Made by a program: the position numbers and the translations under genes. The notes under the pieces were generated by a model that worked only from the letters and a program-made list of their open reading frames with translations, was not told the DNA's origin and ran no database searches. A stretch of 16,298 bases of DNA, taken from assembly GCA_016201085.1 (NCBI GenBank), contig JACQDO010000247.1, forward strand, positions 1 through 16,298. The letters are read 5' to 3'. Positions within the stretch are counted from its first letter, which is position 1; the number at the start of each line of letters is the position of its first letter. The DNA is from Hyphomicrobiales bacterium. Its GTDB lineage: Bacteria; Pseudomonadota; Alphaproteobacteria; Rhizobiales; Xanthobacteraceae. Shown here piece after piece: positions 1 through 16,289 of this stretch.

Positions 1-872
1 CCCTGCTTGGCGAGCGCGACCATCAGCGCGTTGATGTCGTCCTGTTTGCACGACGGCCCGAAGCCGGTCTTTCCCACCAGCAGCTTGCGCGCCTCGCGGC
101 GGGCGAAGTCGAGCACCTCGCGCGACACCAGATCGTCGAACAGGATCACATCGGCCGATTGCAACGCCCGCACCGCGCGCAGCGTCAGCAATTCGGCATC
201 GCCCGGTCCGGCGCCGACCAGCGTGACCGAACCGTTTTCCGTCGCAGTGCCTAAGCCCTGCACCTCGGCGACGAAGCGCTCGAAGTCGCCCTGCGTCGGA
301 TCGCTGTCGGGGTTGGCCACCGCATGTGCGGTGAACAGCTGCCAGAACTTGCGCCGGCCGGCAAACGACAGGCCGGAGGCCTTCACTGCGCTACGCCAGC
401 GCGCCGCGGCGGCCGCCCAATCGGCAAAGCCTTTCGGTAGTAGCGCTTCCAGCTTGGCCCTGATCGCCTGCGCGAACACCGGGGCGGCACCGTCGGTGGA
501 AATGCCGATGACCAGCGGCGAACGGTTGACGATGGCGCCGAAGGAAAAGTCGCAGAACGCCGGCTTGTCGATGACATTGACCGGCACGCCGGCGGCACGC
601 GCGGCGCTGGCGAACGCAGCGGCACCATTATCGTCGTCGAAGGCGCCGACGGCCATCGCGGCACCGCGCAGATCGTCCGCCGTCCACGCGTCCACGGCAT
701 AGACTTCGACGCGTGCGCCCGCCGCCTCCAGCTGTTCCCGCTTCCACTCGGCCGCCTGGCCGTCGCCGACCAGCACGACGCGCTTGCCCTGCAACGCCAG
801 GAACACCGGCAGCCGCGCCAGCGGTGACATTCGTTCCGGCTTCGCCTCAAGCGGTTTGCGCAATTCGTCCAT
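1..872 (-). CDS. cysG: Siroheme synthase CysG, copy 1 (3' end outside the window)
   Basis: Multifunctional siroheme synthase: SAM-dependent uroporphyrinogen III methylation, then precorrin-2 oxidation and ferrochelation. Siroheme is the cofactor of NirA and CysI in this locus. About 290 codons are present: the whole N-terminal dehydrogenase/ferrochelatase domain (Rossmann motif VLVGDGQAAEWK near residues 34-45, NVID, then GISTDGAAP) and the first part of the methyltransferase domain (VGAGPGDAELLTLRAVRAL). The ATG at 872-870 is chosen because AAGGA lies 9 nt upstream and the protein then starts like the second copy (RKPLE near the N-terminus). The gene follows nasA in the same operon. A 26-bp duplication just upstream leaves no stop codon between nasA and this ATG, so a NasA-CysG read-through product is possible. 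About nine in ten bases match the copy at 13189-14583. The central Gly of the Gly-Gly-Gly motif is Asp here, at a variable position of GxGxxA. Confidence 0.93.
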   Translation of the reverse strand, partial: MDELRKPLEAKPERMSPLARLPVFLALQGKRVVLVGDGQAAEWKREQLEAAGARVEVYAVDAWTADDLRGAAMAVGAFDDDNGAAAFASAARAAGVPVNVIDKPAFCDFSFGAIVNRSPLVIGISTDGAAPVFAQAIRAKLEALLPKGFADWAAAAARWRSAVKASGLSFAGRRKFWQLFTAHAVANPDSDPTQGDFERFVAEVQGLGTATENGSVTLVGAGPGDAELLTLRAVRALQSADVILFDDLVSREVLDFARREARKLLVGKTGFGPSCKQDDINALMVALAKQ

Positions 873-3563
873 GACTGACGATCCTTTTGAGTTCCGGCAA
901 GCACGAGCCGCAATTGGTTCCGGCGCGCAGCGCCGCGCCGATCTCGTCCACCGCAGCGCCGCGCCGATCTCGTCCACGTTCGCCGCCCGGCCGCTGGCGA
1001 TGGTGGTGCGGATGACGTTCAAGCCGACGCCGAAGCAGGCGCACACCAGCGGGCCGGGATTGGCGAGGCCGTCGGTCGATTTGCCCGACAGCACCGCGCG
1101 CCGTTGCATTTCGCCGAGCGTTTCCGCCTCGAACAGCGCCTTCACCGTGTCCCATTGCGGCACCGCGTCGGCCGGGCCGATGAACAGGCAGCCGTTGAGC
1201 CGGCCCTCGACGAAGGCCGCCACGCGGCAGATGCCGCGCGGCTCGTCCATGTAGTCGGCGATCTCCGCCGCACCGAACAAAGAATGCCCGACCTCGCGCC
1301 AGACGGCGGGCGGCGCGTCGCTCGCCAGCAGCAGGCCGCTGCCGCTTGCGAGCTTCGCACGCGACCACCAGGTTTCCGCCGGCAGATCGATTTGCGCGCG
1401 CGCCAGCAGGAAGCCGCGATAGCGATAGGCCACCGGCTCGACCGCGGCCGGCGTCGCCTTCGCCTCCGGCTGGCCGGAGAACGGGTCGCAGACCGGCGCC
1501 ACCAGCTCGCCGACGCGGGCGGCGGCGGCGGTTTCCTCGCTCCAATGGATCGGCACGAACAGCGACCCGCGCCGCTGGCCCTCGCTGAGCACGACCTTGA
1601 GCACGCAGGCGCCGTCAGGCGTGCGCACGCGCGCCAAGCCGCCATCGGCGAGCCCTGCCGCCGCCGCATCCAGCGGATGCACTTCCACGAACGGCTCCGG
1701 CATGTGGTTGGCGAGGCGCGGGCTGAGCCCCGAGCGCGTCATGCTGTGCCACTGGTCGCGCACGCGGCCGCTGTTGAGGCGAAACGGGAATGGCGCGCTG
1801 AGCGCCGCCCGCGGCGCCGGCGACTCGGGCGCGATCAGCCGCGCCTTGCGGTCGGCCGTGAAGAAACCGCCTTGCGCGAAGAAGCGCGTGTCGCCGCGCG
1901 CGGCGCCGGCGCGCGCCGGCCATTGCACCGGCGCGAGCGCGTTGAATTCCGCCTCGGTGAGTTGCGCCAGCGCACCGATATCGAAATCGCGCGTGCCGTT
2001 ATTCTCGAACGCCGACAGCGCCGCGTGTTCGCGGAAAATATCGGCCGCCGATACGTAGCCGAATTGCTCGCCGAAGCCCAAGCGGTGCGCCACCTGCGCG
2101 ACGATCCACCAGTCCGGCCGCGCCTCGCCCGGCAGCGTCAGGAACGGCCGCTGGCGCGAGATGCGCCGCTCGGAATTGGTGACGGTGCCGTCCTTCTCGC
2201 CCCAGGCAGCGGCCGGCAGCAAAATTTGCGCACCGGCATTGATGGTGTCGTTGGACAGCACGTTGTCGGACACCACGAACAGCTCGAGTTGGCCGAGCGC
2301 TTCGCGCACCGCGCGCGCGCGCGGCAGCGACACCGCCGGATTGGTCGCCATCACCCACAGCGCCTTGATCTCGCCGCGCTCGATGGCTTCGAACATCTGC
2401 ACCGCCTTGAGACCCTCGCGCCGCGCCATGTTGGAGGCGCGCCAGAAGCGGCCGACGCGGTCGATTTCCTCCGGCGAAAAATTCATGTGCGCCGCAAGTT
2501 GATTGGCGAGGCCGCCGACTTCGCGGCCGCCCATCGCGTTGGGCTGGCCGGTGAGCGAGAACGGCCCCATACCCGGCCGGCCGATGCGGCCGGTAACGAG
2601 ATGGCAGTTGATGATGGCCGAGACCTTGTCGGTGCCCTGCGCCGACTGGTTCACGCCCTGCGAATAACCGGTGACCGTGTTCGGCGTGGCGCGGAACAGC
2701 TCGAAGAAATGGGCGACGTCGGATTCGGCCAGACCGCAGGCGGCCGCGGTCGCCGCCACGCTCGGCGCGATTTCGCGCGCGCGGGCGAGCGCTTCGGCAA
2801 AGCCCGAGGTGTGGGCTGCGATATAGGTACGGTCGAGCGCGTCGCGTTCGGTGAGATGCACCAGCAGGCCGCAGAACAGTGCGGTGTCCATGCCCGGCGC
2901 CACGCTCAGGAACAAATCGGCGTCTTCCGCGCTGGCCGTGCGGCGCGGGTCGATCACGACCAGTCTGGCGCCGCGCGCGCGCTTGTTGGCGACCATGCGC
3001 TGATAGAGCACGGGATGGCACCAGGCCGCGTTGGAGCCGACCAGAACGATCAGATCGGCGCGGTCGAGATCGGCATAGACGCCGGGCACCGTATCGGCTC
3101 CGAAGGCGCGCCGGTGGCCGGCGACCGACGAGGCCATGCACAGCCGCGAATTGGTGTCGACATTGGCCGAGCCGAGGAAGCCCTTCATCAGCTTGTTGGC
3201 AACGTAGTAATCCTCGGTGAGCAATTGCCCGGACAGATAGAACGCCACCGCGTCGGGGCCGTGTTCGCGAATGGTGCGGGCAAAGCCGTCGGCGACCAGG
3301 CCGAGCGCGCGCTCCCACGAGGCGCGCGCCAGCCGGCCGTCGGCCTGCCGCAGCATCGGATGCAGCAGCCGGCTGTCGAGGCCGAGTGTCTCGCCCAGCG
3401 CGGAGCCTTTCGAGCAGAGTCGCCCGAAATTGGCCGGATGCTCGGGATCGCCGGCGATCACCGCGCCGCCGCGCCCATCCGGCTTGGCCAGCACGCCACA
3501 GCCGACCCCGCAATAGGGGCAGGCAGTGCGCACGGCCGGCGGATGATGCGCGGGCGCGTTCAT
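847..3563 (-). CDS. nasA: Assimilatory nitrate reductase catalytic subunit NasA, 3' end frameshifted by a tandem duplication
   Basis: Cytoplasmic molybdopterin nitrate reductase, converting nitrate to nitrite. Starting at 3563 (ATG overlapping the upstream stop as TGATG), the protein opens with a [4Fe-4S] site CPYCGVGC (Cys15, 18, 22) plus Cys50. The molybdenum-ligand region NSRLCMASS is near residue 142, followed by motifs of the bis-MGD family such as TGQPNAMGGREVGGL, NSERRISRQRPF and a C-terminal MopB domain. A BFD-like [2Fe-2S] domain with CAC at 841-843 ends the protein. The second cysteine pair of that domain (NCGSC) lies one frame away because of an exact 26-bp duplication at 926-977. 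With one unit removed, the gene ends at the TGA at 847-849, giving 896 residues, a normal NasA length. As read, the frame leaves NasA after Arg871, adds 26 unrelated residues and enters cysG in frame. No signal peptide is visible, which fits an assimilatory enzyme. Confidence 0.9.
926..977. repeat. Exact 26-bp tandem duplication in the nasA 3' end
   Basis: Positions 926-951 and 952-977 are identical 26-bp units placed directly head to tail. Because 26 is not a multiple of three, the second unit shifts the nasA frame. Removing one unit restores the NCGSC cysteine pair of the C-terminal [2Fe-2S] domain and a stop at 847-849. Such short perfect duplications arise by slippage or, sometimes, by assembly or sequencing error. 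Confidence 0.95.
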
Positions 3564-5209
3564 CAATAGACGTCCTGCTGATAACGCCCGACCTTCTTCA
3601 GATTGGCGACGAAGGCCGTCGCCTCGTCCGCGCTGCGTGCGCCGTGCTGGGCCACGATATCGACCAGCGCGATTTCCACGTCCTTGGCCATGCGCTTGGC
3701 GTCGCCGCAGACATAGATATGCGCGCCCTCGGCGAGCCAGGCCCACAGATCGCGGCCAACCTCGCGTATGCGGTCCTGCACGTAAATCTTCTTTTCGCTG
3801 TCGCGCGACCAGGCGAGGGTGAGCCGCGTCAGCACGCCGGACGATTTCATGGTCTTGAAGTCGTCCTCGTAGAAGAAATCGAAATTGGACCGTTGATGGC
3901 CAAAGAACAGCCAGTTGCGGCCGGACGCCTGGGTCGCCCAGCGCTCCTGCAGGAAGGCGCGGAACGGCGCGACGCCGGTGCCCGGCCCGATCATGACGAT
4001 CGGCACCGCCGGATCGGCCGGCAGCGCGAAGGCGGGCGCCTTCTGCACGTAGATCCGGACGATGGCGCCTGGCTTGACGCGTTCGGCCAGATAGGTGGAG
4101 GCCACGCCGAGCCGGCGGCGGCCGCCGATCTCGTAGCGCACCGCATCGACGGTGAGCGCGACCCGGCGCGGATCGAGCTTGGGCGACGACGAGATCGAAT
4201 AAAGCCGCGGTTGCAGTTGATCGAGCGCCTCGATGAAGGCTTCCGGATCGGGCCGGATGCCGGGAAATTTCTCGATCGCCGCCAGCACGTCGAGCGTCTC
4301 CGCATCGCCGTCCGGATCGTCGCCATTGGCCAGCGCGCGCGCCTTGATGCGGCGTTCGCCGCCGGTGATGTAGGAGAACAGCTGGAACAGCATGTCGGGC
4401 GCCGGCGACAGCGACACGCTGTCGAACAGTACCTCGCGCAAGGTGCGTCCGCCGATGGGGAAATCCGCCGGCGCGCCGAGCGCCTTGATCACCGCGTCGA
4501 CCAGCGCCGGGTCGTTGGTGGGAAACAGGCCGAAGGAATCGCCAACCGCATAATCGAGGCCGCGCGTCGAGACGTTCAATTCGACGTGCCAGGTTTCCTT
4601 TTCCGAGCCGGGCTTGTTGAGCCTTTTGCACGACAGCACGGTCGCCATTGCCGGGTTGTCGCGCGAATAGCGCGGCACAACTTCCGCTACCGGCGCCGAT
4701 TCTTCCGCTACCGAAGCTGCTTCGGCGGCAGCGGGCGAAGCCGCGGCCGGCGCCGGTGGCGCGCTCTTGAGCTCTTCATGCAATTTCTTCAGCATGCGGG
4801 CGGTTTCCTTGCCGCCCGGCACGCACAGGTTCAGCCGTTCTTCCTTGCCGCTGAAAATGGCGCCCGAATAATTCCGGCAGTCGTAGCCGCACTGGCCGCA
4901 ATCCTGCTGCGCCATCGCCGCCATCAGGCGCCAGCGCATCGGCTTGCCGTCGGCCAGCTTCATGCGGTCGGCGAGCGCTATGGTCTGATCGTGCCAGGGC
5001 GCGCCACCGTCGTCATCATCGGCAGCCTTGGCACTGGTGCCGCCGGCCAACAGCGCCGCCGCCTGCTCGCCGGAGAGCGGCGTGACGCCATAGCCGTCGA
5101 GCGAAATCAGCCCGGCGAAGAAGCCATTGAGCCAGACGCGCTGCTCCGCGGAGAATGGCGCGGTTTCCGGAATAAACGATGGGATCGGCGGCGGTATGTT
5201 TTGCGTCAT
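3563..5209 (-). CDS. CysJ-like NAD(P)H flavoprotein reductase with N-terminal Fe-S motif and no flavodoxin domain
   Basis: A 548-residue electron-transfer flavoprotein. Residues 180-548 resemble the FAD/NADP half of sulfite reductase alpha subunit (CysJ): FAD motif RLYSISSS (335-342), GVASTYLA (368-375), nucleotide motif GPGTGVAPFRAFLQER (408-423), YVCGDAKRMAKDV (499-511) and the typical C-terminal end RYQQDVY. The FMN flavodoxin domain of true CysJ is absent. Instead residues 104-111 read CGQCGYDC with a fourth Cys in LCVPGG (129), the spacing of a small 4Fe-4S domain such as PF04060. An Ala/Pro-rich linker (149-178) joins the halves. The ATG overlaps the nirA stop (ATGA) and the stop overlaps the nasA start (TGATG), so it is translationally coupled to both. 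It probably passes NAD(P)H electrons to NirA and/or NasA; which one is not shown by sequence. It may also serve CysI, whose operon shows no reductase subunit here. It is usually labelled sulfite reductase alpha subunit. Confidence 0.88.
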   Translation of the reverse strand: MTQNIPPPIPSFIPETAPFSAEQRVWLNGFFAGLISLDGYGVTPLSGEQAAALLAGGTSAKAADDDDGGAPWHDQTIALADRMKLADGKPMRWRLMAAMAQQDCGQCGYDCRNYSGAIFSGKEERLNLCVPGGKETARMLKKLHEELKSAPPAPAAASPAAAEAASVAEESAPVAEVVPRYSRDNPAMATVLSCKRLNKPGSEKETWHVELNVSTRGLDYAVGDSFGLFPTNDPALVDAVIKALGAPADFPIGGRTLREVLFDSVSLSPAPDMLFQLFSYITGGERRIKARALANGDDPDGDAETLDVLAAIEKFPGIRPDPEAFIEALDQLQPRLYSISSSPKLDPRRVALTVDAVRYEIGGRRRLGVASTYLAERVKPGAIVRIYVQKAPAFALPADPAVPIVMIGPGTGVAPFRAFLQERWATQASGRNWLFFGHQRSNFDFFYEDDFKTMKSSGVLTRLTLAWSRDSEKKIYVQDRIREVGRDLWAWLAEGAHIYVCGDAKRMAKDVEIALVDIVAQHGARSADEATAFVANLKKVGRYQQDVY

Positions 5210-6975
5210 TCGGCAGCTTCCGCAGCGAACATGGTCTTCAGCGCGGCGACCTCATGCCGGCGCGAGAAGGCAAGGAAGCTCTCCTCGCGCGCGGTGCGAT
5301 GCGCGAGATAACCCTTGAGCATGCGCTCGACGGTGCGCGGCGCATCCTCCGCCTTGACGTCGCGATAGAGCTCGCGGCCGAGCGCGGCGTCGGGACCGAA
5401 GCCGCCGCCGACATAGATGTGATAGCCCTCGATCTGGTCGCCCTCCTCCGACACCTGGATCTTGCAGGCGAGCAGGCCGATTTCGCTGATGTAATGCTGC
5501 GCGCAGGAATGATGGCAGCCGGTGAGATGGATATTGACCGGGCCGTCGAGATTGACGCGCGCCTCGCACCATTGCGCGATCTCCTCGGCGTGGCGCTTGG
5601 TGTCGGAGGCGGCGAACTTGCAGCCGACATTGCCGGTGCAGGCGACCAGCCCGGCGCGGATCGAGGTCGCCTCGGTCGATAGGCCGAGCGCCGCGATGGC
5701 GGCGCAGGCGGCGGCGACTTTGCCGTCGGCGACGCCGGAAATCAGCGAATTCTGCCAGACCGTCAGGCGGATATCGCCGTCGCCGAATTCCTGCGCGATC
5801 TTGCCGAGGCCGTTCATCTGTTCGGCGCTCAGCTTTGCCACCGGCAGCACGACGCCGATCCAGTTGAGCCCCTCCTGCTTCTGTCGGTGCACGCCGACAT
5901 GGGCGGAGCGGTCGTGCGGCGGGCGCGGTGCGATCGCCTCGGCCGGCACTGTGATGAGCTTGCGGCCGAGCTTTTCCTCGACCAGCACGAGGAATTTCTC
6001 CAGGCCCATCGAGTCCAGCACATATTTCAGCCGCGCCTTGGTGCGGTCGGTGCGGTTGCCATGGTCGATATAGACGCGCACCACGGCGTCTGCGACCGGC
6101 GTCGCTTCCTCCGGCTTGACGATCACGCCGGTGTCACGGGCGAAGTCCTTGTGCCCAGTGATGCCGCCGAGCGCGAGCTTGAACCACACGCCGGCCTCGG
6201 GTCCGAAGCCCTCCTTCACCTCCACCGCCGCAAAGCCGATGTCGTTGGTGTCCTCCAGCACCGGAATACAGCCGCCGCCGTCGAAGCCGACATTGAACTT
6301 GCGTGGCAGGCCGTAGAGTGCACGCTCGTTGAGAATGTGGAAGTGCCATTCGCGCGCATAAGGCCGCGTGTCGATCAGCTCCTGGCGATCGATCCCGGCG
6401 GTAGGCGTGCCGGTGACATTGCGGATATTGTCTGCGCCCGAGCCGCGCGAACACAGACCGAGGTCCTGGATCGCCTCCACCATGGCGACCGCGTTCTTCG
6501 GCTCGATCTCGCGCATTTGCAGGTTGGCGCGGGTGGTGACGTGGCTGTAGCCACCGGCATAGCGCTCGGCCAGATCGGCGAGGCCCGTCATCTGCCAATG
6601 CTTAAGGATGCCGTTCGGGATGCGCAGCCGGCACATGTAGGAATTCTGCGCCGGCGCCACGTAGAACAGCCCGTAGAAGCGCCAGCGGAAATTGTCCGGC
6701 GGCTTGGGCGCTTCGTTGTTGTGCGCCTGTTGCTTCAGCCGCTCGTAGCCGTCGAACGGATGCAGCTCGCGCTTGAACTTCTCCTGATCGGCGAGCTTGC
6801 CGCCCGCCGCCAGCACGCGATCCTGCGCCTTGAGGTGGATGGCGTCGGGACCGCTCGGCTCGCCGCCCGCGGCTGCGCCCGCGGGCAGCTGGCCGCGCGC
6901 GGCGCGCGCCGCCGTGAGGCCTGACGCGAAACCCTCGAGATAACGTTTCTGGTCGGGGGTGAAGTCGCTCGACAT
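5206..6975 (-). CDS. nirA: Siroheme-dependent assimilatory nitrite reductase NirA (ferredoxin type)
   Basis: Six-electron reduction of nitrite to ammonium in the cytoplasm, using siroheme and a [4Fe-4S] cluster. The 589-residue protein has the two-repeat nitrite/sulfite reductase layout and the cluster/siroheme cysteines CTGNVGC (446-452) and CHHSC (487-491). NVTGTPTAGID (186-196) and the first-repeat segment MCRLRIPNGIL (114-124) are also typical. The length matches ferredoxin-nitrite reductases and not NADH-dependent NirB, which carries extra N-terminal FAD/NAD domains. The start at 6975 is chosen over an upstream in-frame start at 7188 because GTGAGGG sits 7-8 nt before this ATG, the family N-terminus begins here, and the upstream extension would run through the predicted promoter and leader. 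It is the first gene of the operon nirA, flavoprotein, nasA, cysG, with a 4-nt overlap to the next gene. Confidence 0.94.
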   Translation of the reverse strand: MSSDFTPDQKRYLEGFASGLTAARAARGQLPAGAAAGGEPSGPDAIHLKAQDRVLAAGGKLADQEKFKRELHPFDGYERLKQQAHNNEAPKPPDNFRWRFYGLFYVAPAQNSYMCRLRIPNGILKHWQMTGLADLAERYAGGYSHVTTRANLQMREIEPKNAVAMVEAIQDLGLCSRGSGADNIRNVTGTPTAGIDRQELIDTRPYAREWHFHILNERALYGLPRKFNVGFDGGGCIPVLEDTNDIGFAAVEVKEGFGPEAGVWFKLALGGITGHKDFARDTGVIVKPEEATPVADAVVRVYIDHGNRTDRTKARLKYVLDSMGLEKFLVLVEEKLGRKLITVPAEAIAPRPPHDRSAHVGVHRQKQEGLNWIGVVLPVAKLSAEQMNGLGKIAQEFGDGDIRLTVWQNSLISGVADGKVAAACAAIAALGLSTEATSIRAGLVACTGNVGCKFAASDTKRHAEEIAQWCEARVNLDGPVNIHLTGCHHSCAQHYISEIGLLACKIQVSEEGDQIEGYHIYVGGGFGPDAALGRELYRDVKAEDAPRTVERMLKGYLAHRTAREESFLAFSRRHEVAALKTMFAAEAAE

Positions 6976-7098
6976 TGTCGCCCTCACGCCACCAGTTCGC
7001 GCATCGCTTCGATCGACGTTCGCGCAAGCAAGGAAGCGAGCAAGCGTCCCGGCGCCATGCCGCTGACAATCGAAACCAGATTCCGGCTCATCCGTTTT

Positions 7099-7154
7099 GC
7101 AGCGGGGGCTGCCCTTTCTACGTACAGACGACGGCTGCACGCGAATTGGTGCAG
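7099..7154 (-). promoter_or_regulatory. nirA leader stem-loops
   Basis: Two stems can form in the predicted leader RNA. One is CTGCAC/GTGCAG with an 8-nt loop (7154-7135), starting about 8 nt from the predicted 5' end. The other is GCAGC/GCTGC with a CCCC loop (7112-7099). There is no U-tract, so neither is a terminator as seen. Two tandem stems resemble the targets of NasR/NasT antiterminators, but the loops are not the six-base loops described for that class. The first stem also reads as a near NtrC dyad (TGCAC-N8-GTGCA, one base longer than consensus spacing). Confidence 0.35.
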
Positions 7155-7172
7155 AGCGCATAACGGATGTTT

Positions 7173-7187
7173 GCAAAACCTGTACCA
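7173..7187 (-). promoter_or_regulatory. Sigma-54 (-24/-12) promoter of the nirA operon
   Basis: The minus strand reads TGGTACAGGTTTTGCA here: GG and GC dinucleotides with the required spacing, and one mismatch to TGGCAC. The predicted transcript start is near 7161, giving a leader of about 185 nt before nirA. Bases on both sides of the -24 box also form a perfect dyad (CCTGTAC-ATG-GTACAGG, 7178-7194). Confidence 0.7.
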
Positions 7188-7239
7188 TGTACAGGAGGAC
7201 GGCCGGCGGTTCGCTATCTAATTGATATTGCTATATAAT

Positions 7240-7569: not shown

Positions 7570-8394
7570 ATGTCCTATCTCGTACCTTCGGAATTCGTCA
7601 CCAAGATGGTCGACGCCGGCGAATCCAAGATCTTCATGTCGACCCGCGACACAGTCGTGCGTGCTTACATGGCCGGCGCCATTTTGGCCTTGGCCGCCTG
7701 GATGGCAATCACGATCACCGTGAACACCGGGCAGCCGCTCGTTGGAGCGCTGCTGTTTCCGGTCGGATTCGTCATGTTGTACCTCCTCGGTTTCGATCTC
7801 TTGACCGGCGTGTTCGTCCTCTGCCCGCTGGCCTTGATCGACAAGCGGCCGGGGGTGACGATGGCCGGAGTTTTAAGAAACTGGGGCCTGGTTTTTCTCG
7901 GCAACTTTGCCGGCTCTCTCACCACGGCTTTCTTGATGGCCTACGTAACGACGTTCGGCTTCACGCAGCCACCTGACAAAGTCGGCACCGTGATCGGAAA
8001 CATCGGCGAAGCCCGAACGCTCGGCTACGCCGCCCACGGCGCCGCCGGCATGGCGACGCTGTTTTTCCGCGGCGCGCTGTGCAACTGGATGGTCTCGACC
8101 GGAGTCGTCGGCGCCATGATCTCGACATCGGTCCCCGGCAAGGTCATCGCGATGTGGATGCCGATCTTCGTGTTCTTCTACATGGTGTTCGAGCATTCGG
8201 TCGTGAACATGTTCCTGTTCCCGGCGGGCTTGATGCTGCATGCCCCGTTCTCGATCCTAGACTATTTCATCTGGAACGAGATTCCGACCGTGCTCGGCAA
8301 TCTGGTCGGCGGGCTGGCTTTCACCGGCCTCACCCTCTACGCCACCCACGTCCGCACCGCTCCCAAGCGCGCCGCCCTCAAGCGCGTCGCCTGA
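7570..8394 (+). CDS. nirC: Formate/nitrite transporter (FNT) family channel, probably nitrite (NirC-like)
   Basis: Inner-membrane pentameric channel of the FocA/NirC family, here most likely moving nitrite because it sits among nitrate and nitrite reductase genes. The 274-residue protein has about six hydrophobic segments. FNT signatures seen are YMAGAILALAAW (33-44), FRGALCNWMV (166-175) and FEHSVVNM (207-214), the last with His209, equivalent to the central pore histidine of FocA. The ATG is preceded by AGGGGA at 7-nt spacing. It is transcribed from the sigma-54 promoter at 7422-7436. The substrate is an inference: the family also carries formate and hydrosulfide, and formate or hydrosulfide channels share the same motifs. 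The kinase/phosphatase gene follows 64 bp downstream on the same strand, separated by a terminator-like hairpin. Confidence 0.92.
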   Translation: MSYLVPSEFVTKMVDAGESKIFMSTRDTVVRAYMAGAILALAAWMAITITVNTGQPLVGALLFPVGFVMLYLLGFDLLTGVFVLCPLALIDKRPGVTMAGVLRNWGLVFLGNFAGSLTTAFLMAYVTTFGFTQPPDKVGTVIGNIGEARTLGYAAHGAAGMATLFFRGALCNWMVSTGVVGAMISTSVPGKVIAMWMPIFVFFYMVFEHSVVNMFLFPAGLMLHAPFSILDYFIWNEIPTVLGNLVGGLAFTGLTLYATHVRTAPKRAALKRVA

Positions 8395-8410: not shown

Positions 8411-8448
8411 AGAGCCTCAGCCCCACCGGAGTTGAGGCTCTATTCTTT
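8411..8448 (+). terminator. Terminator-like hairpin between the channel and kinase genes
   Basis: A perfect 9-bp stem, AGAGCCTCA (8411-8419) with TGAGGCTCT (8433-8441), is followed by ATTCTTT. The T-run is short and interrupted, so termination is probably partial and could reduce kinase expression relative to the channel. It overlaps an alternative TTG start at 8432, which argues for the ATG at 8459 as the kinase start. Confidence 0.55.
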
Positions 8449-8458
8449 GGACGGCCGC

Positions 8459-10186
8459 ATGGCACAACTCGCGATATCGCTTGGACAGCACTCCGATAGA
8501 GGCCGTAAAGAGTCCAATCAGGATTTTCATGGCGCATTGATTCCGGCCGAACCGCTGTTGAGCCTGAAAGGCATCGCCATCGTGCTGGCGGATGGTATCA
8601 GCAGCAGCAATGTCAGCCAGATCGCCAGCGAGTCCGCCGTCAAAAGCTTTTTGATGGATTATTACTGCACTTCGGAATCCTGGTCGGTAAAGACCTCGGC
8701 CTACCGCGTATTGGCCGCGACAAACTCCTGGCTGCATGCCGAAACCCGGCGCAGTCAGTACCGTTACGACAAAGACAAAGGCTATGTCTGCACCTTAAGC
8801 GCCATGATCATCAAGTCGACGACCGCGCATATATTCCATGTCGGCGATACGCGTATCTACCGTTTGGCCGGCCATTCCCTCGAGCAACTGACCGACGATC
8901 ATCGGGTTACGTTTTCATCGGAGCAAAACTACCTCAGCCGCGCGCTGGGCATGAACCCGCAAATCGAGATCGACCACCAAACGCTGCAAGTCGGCAAGGG
9001 AGATATTTTTCTGCTGGCGACCGACGGCGTTTACGAGCATGTCGAGCCGCGCTTCATCGCCAACGCCATCAAAAACAACGCCAAAGATCTGGACGGCGCG
9101 GCCAGGTTTCTGGTCGAGGAAGCCTACAAGAACGGCAGCGCGGACAACCTGACCGTTCAGATCGTGCGCATCGACGAACTGCCGGATAGCGAACCGAGCG
9201 ACGTTTTCGGACGGGCGAGCGAACTATCGCCGCCGCCGCTGCTGGAAGCGCGCATGGTTTTCGATCAATACCGCATCGTCAGGGAAGTTCACGGCAGCAG
9301 CCGCGGTCATATTTATCTGGCCACCGATATCGAAAGCGATCGGCTGGTTACCTTGAAAATTCCGTCGATCGACCTGCGCGACGACCCTGCTTACCTCAAG
9401 CGCTTCATGATGGAAGACTGGGTGGCCCGGCGCATCAACAGTCCCTATGTCTTGAAGCCGTGTTTGCAATCCAGGAAGCGGAACTACCTTTATGTCGTCA
9501 TGGAATTTGTCGACGGGCAAACTCTGACGCAATGGATGATCGACAATCCGAAACCCAACCTTGAGCTTGTCAGAGGGATCGTCGAGCAGATCGCCAAAGG
9601 GCTACAAGCCTTCCACCGAATTGAAATGCTGCATCAGGATCTGCGGCCCGAGAACATCATGATCGACCGAACCGGAACGGTGAAGATCATCGATTTCGGC
9701 TCCACCAATGTCGCCGGCGTCATGGAAGCCACGCCATCGTTGGATGCCAGCCAGATTCTGGGCACGGCGCAATACACCGCGCCGGAATATTTCCTGGGCG
9801 AGAGCGGCTCGACGCGCTCCGATATATTCTCGCTCGGGGTGATTACTTACCAGATGCTGACAGGAAAGCTGCCTTATGGCGCGCATATGGCGCGAGCGCG
9901 CAGCAAGTCCCAGCAACGAAAATTAAATTACAACTCCGTGCTCGACAACAATCGCGAGATCCCCGCCTGGATCGATAGCGCACTCAAGAAGGCGGTGCAG
10001 CCCGACCCCTACAAACGCTATGAGGAACTGTCGGAATTCATGTTCGATCTGCGTCATCCCAATGTGGAGTTTCTCAAGTCGACGCCCGCGCCGCTGCTGG
10101 AGCGCAATCCGCTGTTATTTTGGAAATGTCTTTCGCTGATTCTGGTCTGCGCGTGCTTGGTGCTGCTCGTTCTGCTGCGGCGATAA
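8459..10186 (+). CDS. Bifunctional PP2C phosphatase / Ser-Thr protein kinase, membrane anchored
   Basis: A 575-residue signalling protein. Residues 5-240 form a PP2C-type phosphatase with its metal-binding acids in place: SDRGRKESNQD (Asp22), LADG (Asp45), HVGDTRIYRL (Asp130), LLATDG (Asp189) and ADNLTV (Asp229). Residues 270-535 form an Hanks-type kinase: Lys300 in VTLKIP, catalytic loop HQDLRPEN (392-399), DFG at 412-414, APE at 441-443 and SDIFSLGVITYQMLTGKLPYG. The glycine loop is degenerate (HGSSRG) and the loop residues Arg and Lys of HRDLKPEN are Gln and Arg. A hydrophobic segment at 553-573 ends in RR, so the domains should face the cytoplasm. The start at 8459 is chosen because the phosphatase domain begins there. 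Similar kinases occur beside nir/nas genes in other proteobacteria (PA1782 near nirBD in Pseudomonas aeruginosa). Its target is unknown; the neighbouring channel or the reductases are candidates. Confidence 0.9.
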   Translation: MAQLAISLGQHSDRGRKESNQDFHGALIPAEPLLSLKGIAIVLADGISSSNVSQIASESAVKSFLMDYYCTSESWSVKTSAYRVLAATNSWLHAETRRSQYRYDKDKGYVCTLSAMIIKSTTAHIFHVGDTRIYRLAGHSLEQLTDDHRVTFSSEQNYLSRALGMNPQIEIDHQTLQVGKGDIFLLATDGVYEHVEPRFIANAIKNNAKDLDGAARFLVEEAYKNGSADNLTVQIVRIDELPDSEPSDVFGRASELSPPPLLEARMVFDQYRIVREVHGSSRGHIYLATDIESDRLVTLKIPSIDLRDDPAYLKRFMMEDWVARRINSPYVLKPCLQSRKRNYLYVVMEFVDGQTLTQWMIDNPKPNLELVRGIVEQIAKGLQAFHRIEMLHQDLRPENIMIDRTGTVKIIDFGSTNVAGVMEATPSLDASQILGTAQYTAPEYFLGESGSTRSDIFSLGVITYQMLTGKLPYGAHMARARSKSQQRKLNYNSVLDNNREIPAWIDSALKKAVQPDPYKRYEELSEFMFDLRHPNVEFLKSTPAPLLERNPLLFWKCLSLILVCACLVLLVLLRR

Positions 10187-13188: not shown

Positions 13189-14583
13189 TTACGCAATTGC
13201 GCGATTTTCCGCCGGCGTCGCGCCCAGCTCGCGCATGGCGCGCCCCAGCATCACCAGCACCGGACCCGGCAACGCGGCCTGCGCCAGGCGGGCGGGCAGT
13301 TCGCCAATGGGCGCCGCCACCGTCGCCTGATCGGGCTGCGTGGCGCGCGCGATGGCGATGGCCGGCGTTGTCGGGTCGAGGCCCGCGGCGATGGCGCGCG
13401 TGACCAAAGCCTCCAGCGTTTTGGTTGGCATGTAGATCGCCGTGGTGGTCGCCGGATCGGCGAGGCTCTGCCAGTCGAGATCGGCGGGCAACTGGCCGTC
13501 CTTGGCGTGGCCGGTGACATATTGCAGCCGGCGCGCATGTTGGCGGTCGGTCAGTGGCAGCGCCAGCCTGGCGGCGGCGCCTTGCGCTGCCGTGATGCCG
13601 GGCACGATCTCAACGGAAATATTCGCCGCGCGGCAGGCATCCAGTTCCTCGCCGGCGCGACCGAAGATCAGTGGGTCGCCACCTTTGAGGCGCACCACGC
13701 GCTTGCCCTGCTCGGCGAGCGCGACCATCAGCGCGTTGATGTCGTCCTGCTTGCAGGACGGCCCGAAGCCGGTCTTGCCGACCAGCATCTTGCGCGCCTC
13801 GCGCCGGGCAAAATCCAGCACCTCGCGCGACACCAGATCGTCGAACAGGATGACGTCGGCCGCTTGCAGCGCCCGCACCGCGCGCAGCGTCAGCAATTCG
13901 GCATCGCCCGGTCCGGCGCCGACCAAAGTGACCGAGCCGTTCTCGACCGCTGTCCCTAAGCCCTGCACCTCGGCCACGAAGCGCTCGAAGTCGCTTTCCG
14001 TCGGCTCGCTCGCCGGGTTGGCAACAGCATGCGCGGTGAACAGCTGCCAGAACTTGCGGCGCCCAGCAAATGACAGACCTGAGGCTTTCACCGCATTGCG
14101 CCAGCGTCCTGCTGCCGCAGCCCACTCGGCAAAACCCTTGGGCAGCAGCGCTTCCAGCTTGGCGCGGATCGCCTGCGCGAACACCGGGGCGGCGCCGTCG
14201 GTGGAGATGCCGATCACCAGCGGCGAACGGTTGACGATGGCGCCGAAGGAGAAGTCGCAGAACGCCGGATTGTCGATGACATTGACCGGCACGCCTACGG
14301 CGCGCGCGGCCTTGGCGAAGGCCGCAGCCCGCTCGTCATCCTCGAAGGCGCCAACGGCGATGGCCGCGCCGCGCAGATCGTCCGCCGTCCACGCGTCCAC
14401 GGCATAGACTTCGACGCGTGCGCCTGCCGCCTCCAGCAGCTCGCGCTTCCACTCGGCCGCCTGACCGCCACCCACCAGCACGACGCGTTTGCCTTGCAGC
14501 GCCAGGAATACCGGCAATCGCGCCAGCGGTCCCATGCGCGCCGGCTGCGTCTCAAGCGGTTTGCGTTCGGATTTTTCGGTCAT
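13189..14583 (-). CDS. cysG: Siroheme synthase CysG, copy 2 (complete)
   Basis: A complete 464-residue siroheme synthase, close to the 457 residues of E. coli CysG. Residues 30-165 are the precorrin-2 dehydrogenase/ferrochelatase domain with VLVGGGQAAEWK (35-46) and NVID (Asp104, the position of the catalytic Asp in the E. coli enzyme). Residues 217-460 are the uroporphyrinogen III methyltransferase domain with LVGAGPGDAELLTLRA (220-235), RLKGGDPLIFGRAGEE (298-313) and VPGITAAQGAAA (327-338). The ATG overlaps the cysI stop by 4 nt (ATGA), which ties it to sulfite reductase as its siroheme supplier. The first 870 bp align without gaps to the copy at 1-872, apart from two extra N-terminal codons. 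No terminator was seen after its TAA before the narK control region. Confidence 0.95.
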   Translation of the reverse strand: MTEKSERKPLETQPARMGPLARLPVFLALQGKRVVLVGGGQAAEWKRELLEAAGARVEVYAVDAWTADDLRGAAIAVGAFEDDERAAAFAKAARAVGVPVNVIDNPAFCDFSFGAIVNRSPLVIGISTDGAAPVFAQAIRAKLEALLPKGFAEWAAAAGRWRNAVKASGLSFAGRRKFWQLFTAHAVANPASEPTESDFERFVAEVQGLGTAVENGSVTLVGAGPGDAELLTLRAVRALQAADVILFDDLVSREVLDFARREARKMLVGKTGFGPSCKQDDINALMVALAEQGKRVVRLKGGDPLIFGRAGEELDACRAANISVEIVPGITAAQGAAARLALPLTDRQHARRLQYVTGHAKDGQLPADLDWQSLADPATTTAIYMPTKTLEALVTRAIAAGLDPTTPAIAIARATQPDQATVAAPIGELPARLAQAALPGPVLVMLGRAMRELGATPAENRAIA

Positions 14584-16289
14584 GCCGCGGCGCCGGGTTT
14601 CTTGAGATTGACGTTGGCGTGGAAATCGCGACCATTGCCGGTGGCCGCGACGAAGCCGGCGCGGATGGTGAAATCGCCGAAGCGTTCGCCCTTCTGCCGC
14701 GAGGCCGCATAGGCGGCAAAGATCGGATCGAGCGCGGCAATAATCGCGTCGTGCTCGAGGTCCTCGGCATAGAGCTTGGATAGCCGCGAGCCGTCGAAGG
14801 CGGCGCCGAGATAAAGATTGTAGCGGCCCGGCCCTTTGCCGACCAAGCCGATCTCGGCGAGATAAGGCCGCGCGCAGCCGTTCGGGCAGCCGGTCATGCG
14901 GATGACGATGTCGTCTTGCGACAGGCCGTGCGCCGCCAGTTTCTCGTCCAGCGCGGTGATCAGGTCCGGCAGGTAGCGCTCGCTTTCGGCCAGCGCCAGG
15001 CCGCAGGTCGGCAGCGCGACGCAGGCCATCGAATTGCGCCGCAGGCCCGACCACGGCGCCAGCAGGCCGGTCCCCACCATCGCCCAGTGAATCTTCTTTT
15101 GCTTCTCGACCGGGATATTGGCAACGATCAAATGCTGATTGGGTGTGATGCGGAAATCGCCGTCATGATTTTGCGCGATTTTGCGCAGTGCCGCCATCTG
15201 CTTCTCGAACAGCCGCCCGTTCGGCACGAACAGCGTGAGGTGGCTGCGGCCGTTGTCACCCGCGCTCCAGCCGTAGCTGTCGCCCTGCGAAGTAAACTTG
15301 AACGGCTTGGCCGCTGCGAGCGTGACGCCGGCGCGCTTTTCCACCTCGGCGCGGAAGGCCTCCAGCCCGCGATCTTCGATGGTGTATTTCAGCCGCGCGT
15401 GCTTGCGGTTTAAGCGGTCGCCCCAGTCGCGCTGCACGGTGACGACGGCCTCGGCAATCGCCACCGCATCGCGCGTCTCGCAATAGCCCAATACGTCGGC
15501 GGTGCGCGGGTAAGTATCGGGCTCGCCGTGCGTCATGCCCATGCCGCCGCCGACAGTGACGTTATAGCCGGTCGCCGCGCCCTTCTCGTCGAGGATGGCG
15601 ATGTAGCCAAGATCGTGCGCGAAGATGTCGACGTCGTTCGACGGCGGCACCGCCAGCACGATCTTGAATTTGCGCGGCAGATAGGTCTTGCCGTAGATCG
15701 GCTCCACCGCCTCGTCCTCGCCGCCGGCGATTTTCTCGCCGTCGAGCCAGATCTCGCGGTAAGCCGGCGTGCGCGGCAGCAGATGGTCGGACAGTTTGCG
15801 CGCCAGCTCCAGCGTTTCGGCATGGGCGCGCGACTGGTGCGGATTGGGATTGCACATCACATTGCGATTGACGTCGCCGCAAGCGGCGATCGAATTGAGC
15901 AGCACCGCGTCGATGCGCTGCATGGTCGCCTTCAGGTTCGACTTGATGACGCCGTGCAGCTGCACCGTCTGCCGGGTGGTCAGCTTCATGGTGCCGTTGC
16001 CGTAGTCGCGCGCGATCGCATCGAGCGCCAGCCACTGCGCCGGCGTCAGCACGCCGCCGGACACGCGCACGCGGATCATGAAGGCGAAGGCCTTCTCCAT
16101 CTTCTTGCGCGTGCGTTCCGGCCGCAGGTCGCGGTCGTCCTGCAGATACAGGCCGTGGAATTTCACCAGCTGCTGATCGTCCTCGACGATGGCGCCGGTG
16201 ACTTCCTCAGATAAGCCTTCCGCGAGCGTGCCACGCAGATAGTTGCTGGCTTCCTTGATGCGCTCGTTGCGCGAGACGTCGTCGGTCAT
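14580..16289 (-). CDS. cysI: Sulfite reductase hemoprotein beta subunit CysI
   Basis: Assimilatory sulfite reductase, six-electron reduction of sulfite to sulfide using siroheme and [4Fe-4S]. The 569-residue length matches E. coli CysI (570), and the cluster cysteines are in CVALPTC (423-429) and TGCPNGC (466-472). The N-terminal part has the CysI-type stretches SNYLRGTL, LTTRQTVQLHGVIK and CGDVNRNVMCNPNP (137-150). The start at 16289 is 9 bp from the window edge, with GAGAG just upstream; the promoter lies outside. The gene overlaps cysG copy 2 by 4 nt. No cysJ follows it here, so the NADPH-reductase partner must be elsewhere, or it may be the CysJ-like protein at 3563-5209. Confidence 0.95.
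   Translation of the reverse strand: MTDDVSRNERIKEASNYLRGTLAEGLSEEVTGAIVEDDQQLVKFHGLYLQDDRDLRPERTRKKMEKAFAFMIRVRVSGGVLTPAQWLALDAIARDYGNGTMKLTTRQTVQLHGVIKSNLKATMQRIDAVLLNSIAACGDVNRNVMCNPNPHQSRAHAETLELARKLSDHLLPRTPAYREIWLDGEKIAGGEDEAVEPIYGKTYLPRKFKIVLAVPPSNDVDIFAHDLGYIAILDEKGAATGYNVTVGGGMGMTHGEPDTYPRTADVLGYCETRDAVAIAEAVVTVQRDWGDRLNRKHARLKYTIEDRGLEAFRAEVEKRAGVTLAAAKPFKFTSQGDSYGWSAGDNGRSHLTLFVPNGRLFEKQMAALRKIAQNHDGDFRITPNQHLIVANIPVEKQKKIHWAMVGTGLLAPWSGLRRNSMACVALPTCGLALAESERYLPDLITALDEKLAAHGLSQDDIVIRMTGCPNGCARPYLAEIGLVGKGPGRYNLYLGAAFDGSRLSKLYAEDLEHDAIIAALDPIFAAYAASRQKGERFGDFTIRAGFVAATGNGRDFHANVNLKKPGAAA

Follow-up and report, generated by a model that had tools for sequence, protein, structure and literature searches.

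In Bradyrhizobium japonicum, the assimilatory nitrate reductase NasC (blr2809) is described, in the excerpts of the published account on which we draw, as carrying an N-terminal [4Fe-4S] and a C-terminal [2Fe-2S] cluster, with a flavoprotein as its proposed electron donor, and deletion of NasC abolishes growth on nitrate (PMC4724949). Bacterial reading frames can be broken by the expansion of short tandem repeats, as excerpts of another report describe for a 5-bp repeat in umuC of Vibrio fischeri (PMC2330054). Here, we analyze a nasA gene in which an exact 26-bp tandem duplication shifts the frame shortly before the gene's end and opens it into the neighboring siroheme synthase gene, cysG. The window, by which we mean the whole stretch of DNA analyzed (16,298 nucleotides), is an entire contig (C433) from the draft genome of a soil bacterium of the Hyphomicrobiales (3,661,176 bases in 526 contigs, 88.57% complete).

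An Exact Tandem Duplication Shifts the nasA Frame

Two identical 26-bp units (926-951 and 952-977) lie in tandem inside the 3′ end of nasA (926..977, minus strand). The period-26 run is exactly these 52 bp, with no extra matching base at either flank and with zero microhomology at the breakpoints. No other exact tandem duplication of period 15 to 399 is present in the window, and an exact 26-bp tandem copy within 16 kb is beyond a chance match. A search for a hairpin at the repeat found only ordinary stability (z-scores 0.02 and 1.00).

Upstream of the duplication, nasA runs in frame from its ATG at 3563 (978..3563, minus strand) through N-terminal [4Fe-4S], molybdopterin, and dinucleotide-binding domains and a CAC motif at residues 841-843. 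The frame is shifted after Arg871, the last native residue, and the NCGSC motif is lost from it. From the ATG at 3563 onward, 1187 codons are free of stops up to base 1, which is the contig edge; on the way, the shifted frame crosses a linker of about 26 out-of-frame residues (873..951, minus strand) and takes in the cysG ATG at 872 as its codon 898. The native tail survives in the DNA in another frame (847..951, minus strand), as reading from base 951 in frame 0 yields VDEIGAALRAGTNCGSCLPELKRIVSHGRIAQTA, followed by a stop that ends at 847; this tail contains NCGSC, no longer shares the frame of the rest of nasA and is the same tail as that of relatives. With one 26-bp unit removed, NasA has 896 residues and, with its stop at 847, shares 26 bp with cysG, whose ATG is at 872. 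An earlier note on this DNA had described the two units, the shift after Arg871 with CAC kept and NCGSC lost, the absence of a stop from the nasA ATG through that of cysG to position 1, the retention by cysG of its own AAGGA and ATG, and the normal gene given by a single unit, and each of these descriptions is borne out by our analysis.

Gene Neighborhood and Domain Content

On the minus strand, the gene order is a nitrite/sulfite reductase family gene (5206-7188), a flavoprotein gene (3563..5209), nasA, and a first copy of cysG (1..872) that has its own ATG at 872 with AAGGA upstream and is cut by the contig edge. The flavoprotein, directly upstream of nasA and with FAD- and NAD-binding domains in the domain search, is a candidate electron donor, a presumed role. 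A second nitrite/sulfite reductase gene (14580-16289, minus strand) precedes a complete second cysG (13189..14583, minus strand), which starts inside the stop codon of that reductase gene. The two cysG copies share 88% identity (755/860 bases). The contig breaks inside the first copy, perhaps owing to its likeness with the second, and the contig of the sister genome (G010) likewise stops just within cysG. We found no neighboring contig or alternative version of the locus at either end: the left end matched itself and the second cysG (93%), and the right end matched itself only. Also within the nitrate cluster, a formate/nitrite transporter gene (7570-8394) directly precedes a gene for a protein phosphatase 2C fused to a protein kinase domain (8432-10186, plus strand).

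The domain search places the body of the protein among the NasA/NasC assimilatory nitrate reductases, with the N-terminal domains of that group present (Molybdop_Fe4S4, 55.6 bits; Molybdopterin, 238 bits; Molydop_binding, 97.8 bits; each above its cut-off). The C-terminal BFD-like [2Fe-2S] domain, with its CxC and CxxC pairs, is not intact: Fer2_BFD scores 21.1 bits in the window's NasA, under the cut-off of 26, and 52.7 bits in P0011, the best match listed in a search with NasA residues 400-880 (87% identity). In a search of solved structures, the best stretches among the best 60 of 102 matches end at or before query residue 713, short of the C-terminal domain, and a plasmid search gave partial matches only.

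If the duplication is real, the loss of the C-terminal cluster should, we infer, cut the electron supply to NasA. Siroheme supply should be unharmed, because the first cysG has retained a start of its own and there is another copy of the gene. We detected no replacement NasA in the genome, which is incomplete; the next best match shows 31% identity across query residues 12-237 of 860.

The Lesion Is Private to One Genome among the Relatives Examined

The motif NCG[STA]C is present in the nasA frame in all 26 loci of the genus and in 76 of the 80 loci from named organisms, two sets that are not independent and have some organisms in common (L034 and L009, for instance, come from one organism). 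The four named loci lacking it are two cut by contig ends (L051, L089), one with masked bases (L108), and one with a different, longer C-terminus (L073). In all 102 motif-bearing loci, at most 60 residues follow the motif, and none of the 26 genus loci or the 76 motif-bearing named loci carries the lesion; the 26-bp duplication is private to this genome among the relatives examined. The genus is probably Pseudolabrys, since two of its genomes, G002 and G015, have NasA tails identical to those of L035 and L041, which are named loci of Pseudolabrys. In a short NasA tree, the sister of the window genome is G010 (locus L005; support 100/99), in which the end of NasA is intact. Six other genomes (G259, G326, G329, G169, G047, and G125) have long open frames around NasA; these were considered as candidates and rejected, as each of them finishes with a normal NasA tail and has its extra length upstream.

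By motif search, cysG lies directly downstream of nasA in 21 of the 26 genus loci. With cysG starts extrapolated from the alignment, 18 of these 21 have 26 bp between the start of cysG and the end of the nasA stop; L005 has 17 bp, and an insertion is present in L011 and L019.

Compared with G010, the body of nasA has a dN/dS of 0.178 over 862 codons, a value that denotes purifying selection, and the adjoining flavoprotein gene one of 0.138 over 541 codons. Purifying selection on nasA implies that the lesion is either recent or not real. The NasA C-terminal region has no match at 1e-30 in 14 of 43 genus genomes (some of them incomplete), so that the nitrate assimilation pathway looks dispensable and patchy in the genus and its loss is plausible; in a census of the family, a match is found in 287 of 391 genomes.

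Recent Mutation or Assembly Error as Possible Origins

Damaged NasA or an assembly error explains the sequence. We give about an even chance to the reading that, in this strain or its population, a 26-bp unit within the 3′ end of nasA was recently duplicated in tandem; both the presence of the duplication in cells and its effect are what we infer. Such a duplication would shift the frame after Arg871, the NCGSC pair would go untranslated, and the C-terminal [2Fe-2S] (BFD-like) domain would be left incomplete; NasA would then be without the cluster thought to receive electrons from its reductase, and the cells would probably assimilate nitrate weakly or not at all. The mutant frame would continue into cysG as a by-product, because the two genes overlap by 26 bp and the insertion has a length of 2 mod 3, and cysG could still initiate at its own ATG, with the second cysG also present.

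Several observations count against a mutation: the absence of microhomology, the fragmentation of the draft, and the lack of any other lesion, none having been seen in the genes of the window, the nas cluster included; purifying selection fits a very recent event only. Typical slippage involves microhomology at the breakpoints.

These same observations, together with the absence of the lesion from all 26 genus and all 76 motif-bearing named loci, point to an assembly or sequencing error, in which two fragments with 26 bases in common were placed one after the other rather than overlapped, or an unsupported local copy was introduced, and NasA is normal in cells. We consider such an error quite possible, at somewhat less than an even chance. 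Metagenome assemblies are known for local errors, duplicate sequence at scaffold joins, and wrong repeat numbers (excerpts of PMC7111523), and excerpts of a report on one published genome describe 14 false tandem expansions (PMC2330054); these, however, measured 318-1264 bp, far longer than 26 bp.

Other features of the assembly argue against an error. From 100 of the 526 contigs taken as a sample, 89 were readable (623,420 bases), and these contain no N and hence no sign of gap joins. They hold two other exact tandem duplications of period at least 15 (periods 24 and 15), and one each is found in 14 genus stretches (195,618 bases; period 27) and in the 80 named loci (1,003,123 bases; period 21). 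All four periods are multiples of three, although the numbers are small. As neither of the other duplications in the sampled contigs is frame-breaking, the assembly, within this sample, shows no frequent spurious frame-breaking copies. In addition, the ends of two of its contigs (L150 and L171) overlap by exactly 59 bases, a faint hint, from one pair, of the assembly word length; if it is the word length, the 52-bp array fits within one word and should have needed read support.

Should the second unit prove an error, the locus would illustrate how little a fused open frame says for a fusion protein when the genome is a draft, above all at overlapping genes. If the recent duplication is real, the strain is a natural experiment on whether assimilatory nitrate reductases can function once the C-terminal [2Fe-2S] domain is gone, and it shows a pathway in the course of being lost in a genus already patchy for it.

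The Joined Frame Is Likely a By-product

The earlier note had read the sequence, if real, as producing either a NasA-CysG fusion or a damaged NasA. The elements of that reading hold (frameshift, cysteine loss, open frame, separate cysG start), whereas a meaningful fusion is not supported: when the nasA-cysG junctions of related genomes were compared, no fusion appeared in the 26 genus loci. That nitrate reductase and siroheme synthase have evolved to work here as one protein is suggested by a frame that stays open through both genes and in which domains of NasA and CysG are both recognized. We nonetheless regard it as extremely improbable, given that the joined gene recurs in none (0/26) of the genus loci, that its linker is 26 codons of out-of-frame nasA, and that PF00384 and PF00590 occur together in none of the best 120 of 145 matches listed (7996 candidates scored); the partial NasA-CysG frames P0004 and P0008 look frameshifted by eye.

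An open frame of this kind requires little explanation. Insertions of length 2 mod 3 make up half of all frame-breaking lengths, and all of them put nasA into the cysG frame; of the 21 relatives in which cysG adjoins nasA, 10 have a cysG frame that is free of stops over 35 or more codons upstream of LARLPVF, far enough to reach the duplication site. The fused frame is therefore an ordinary outcome of a frameshift at this place and weak evidence of fusion, likely a by-product. The 26-bp duplication and the 26-bp nasA-cysG overlap are different stretches despite their equal length.

A number of singleton proteins (P0001, P0002, P0003, P0004, P0005, and P0008) join CysG to an upstream flavoprotein, to a sulfite reductase, or to part of NasA, and several of these CysG joints read by eye as frameshifts.

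Duplications near the nasA-cysG Junction

In three of the 21 relatives with an adjacent cysG (L005, L011, and L019, from genomes G010, G027, and G037), the stretch from the CAC motif to LARLPVF has 27 additional bp. They come from an in-frame tandem repeat, with a 27-bp unit, of the RKP segment that closely follows the start of cysG; L011 has an exact repeat, L005 and L019 diverged ones. In the NasA tree, L005 stands apart from L011 and L019, which lie in one supported group of 17. The exact copy is at L187:10750-10805. Duplications of about the window's unit length thus do arise near this junction, a point in favor of a mutation. Among the 14 genus stretches, there are six tandem arrays of period 18-40 with a score of at least 50, and the top two are cysG-start repeats (L187 and L181), which suggests, from small samples, a tendency of the junction to acquire duplications of such a length. 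Such arrays are not rare generally, as the 623,420 bases sampled from the window's own genome hold 31 by the same measure. The relatives' 27-bp units differ from that of the window, lying downstream of the cysG ATG, whereas the window's units lie 54-105 bases upstream of it. In a named relative, Bosea sp. OK403, there is an exact 14-bp tandem copy across the nasA stop codon (L057:8652-8681).

These repeats invite the more ambitious proposal that the junction is a hotspot for 26-27-bp duplications in the genus, with frame-keeping ones fixed in some species and frame-breaking ones switching nitrate assimilation off reversibly while giving a temporary NasA-CysG fusion, a proposal we hold to be very unlikely. 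Its central element, a duplication gained and lost at an appreciable rate so that nitrate assimilation is turned off and on in the population, we judge just as improbable. Tandem copies can be lost exactly, via recombination or slippage, and three relatives carry duplications of similar size nearby. Tandem-repeat copy number is also described, in excerpts of PMC12817950, as varying inside isogenic bacterial populations. Against a reversible switch, the window has just two copies, its unit is duplicated in no relative examined, and the nearby duplications of relatives are frame-keeping and involve different units.

Comparison with Described Systems

The promoter repeats of Mycobacterium tuberculosis, which are phase-variable according to excerpts of PMC12817950, resemble the window in being small tandem duplications whose copy number is in principle changeable. 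The window differs from them in having two copies only, in a coding region, and in being known from one genome. The artefactual expansions in excerpts of PMC2330054 and PMC7111523 offer another likeness, in that a sequence stands twice in tandem and is noticed because relatives lack the copy; unlike the expansions of 318-1264 bp with imperfect copies (PMC2330054), the copy in the window is 26 bp long and exact. The expansion in V. fischeri umuC, again in excerpts (PMC2330054), is similarly a short tandem copy that breaks a gene intact in relatives; in the window, however, the unit is 26 bp, it is known from a draft assembly, and the broken frame joins the next gene.

Among described enzymes, the comparison is with B. 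japonicum NasC, as presented in excerpts of PMC4724949. The window's NasA has the N-terminal [4Fe-4S], molybdopterin, and dinucleotide-binding domains, and a flavoprotein gene adjoins it, as in the B. japonicum system. Unlike NasC, it has a broken C-terminal [2Fe-2S] domain, with CAC kept and NCGSC out of frame, and its reading frame enters cysG.
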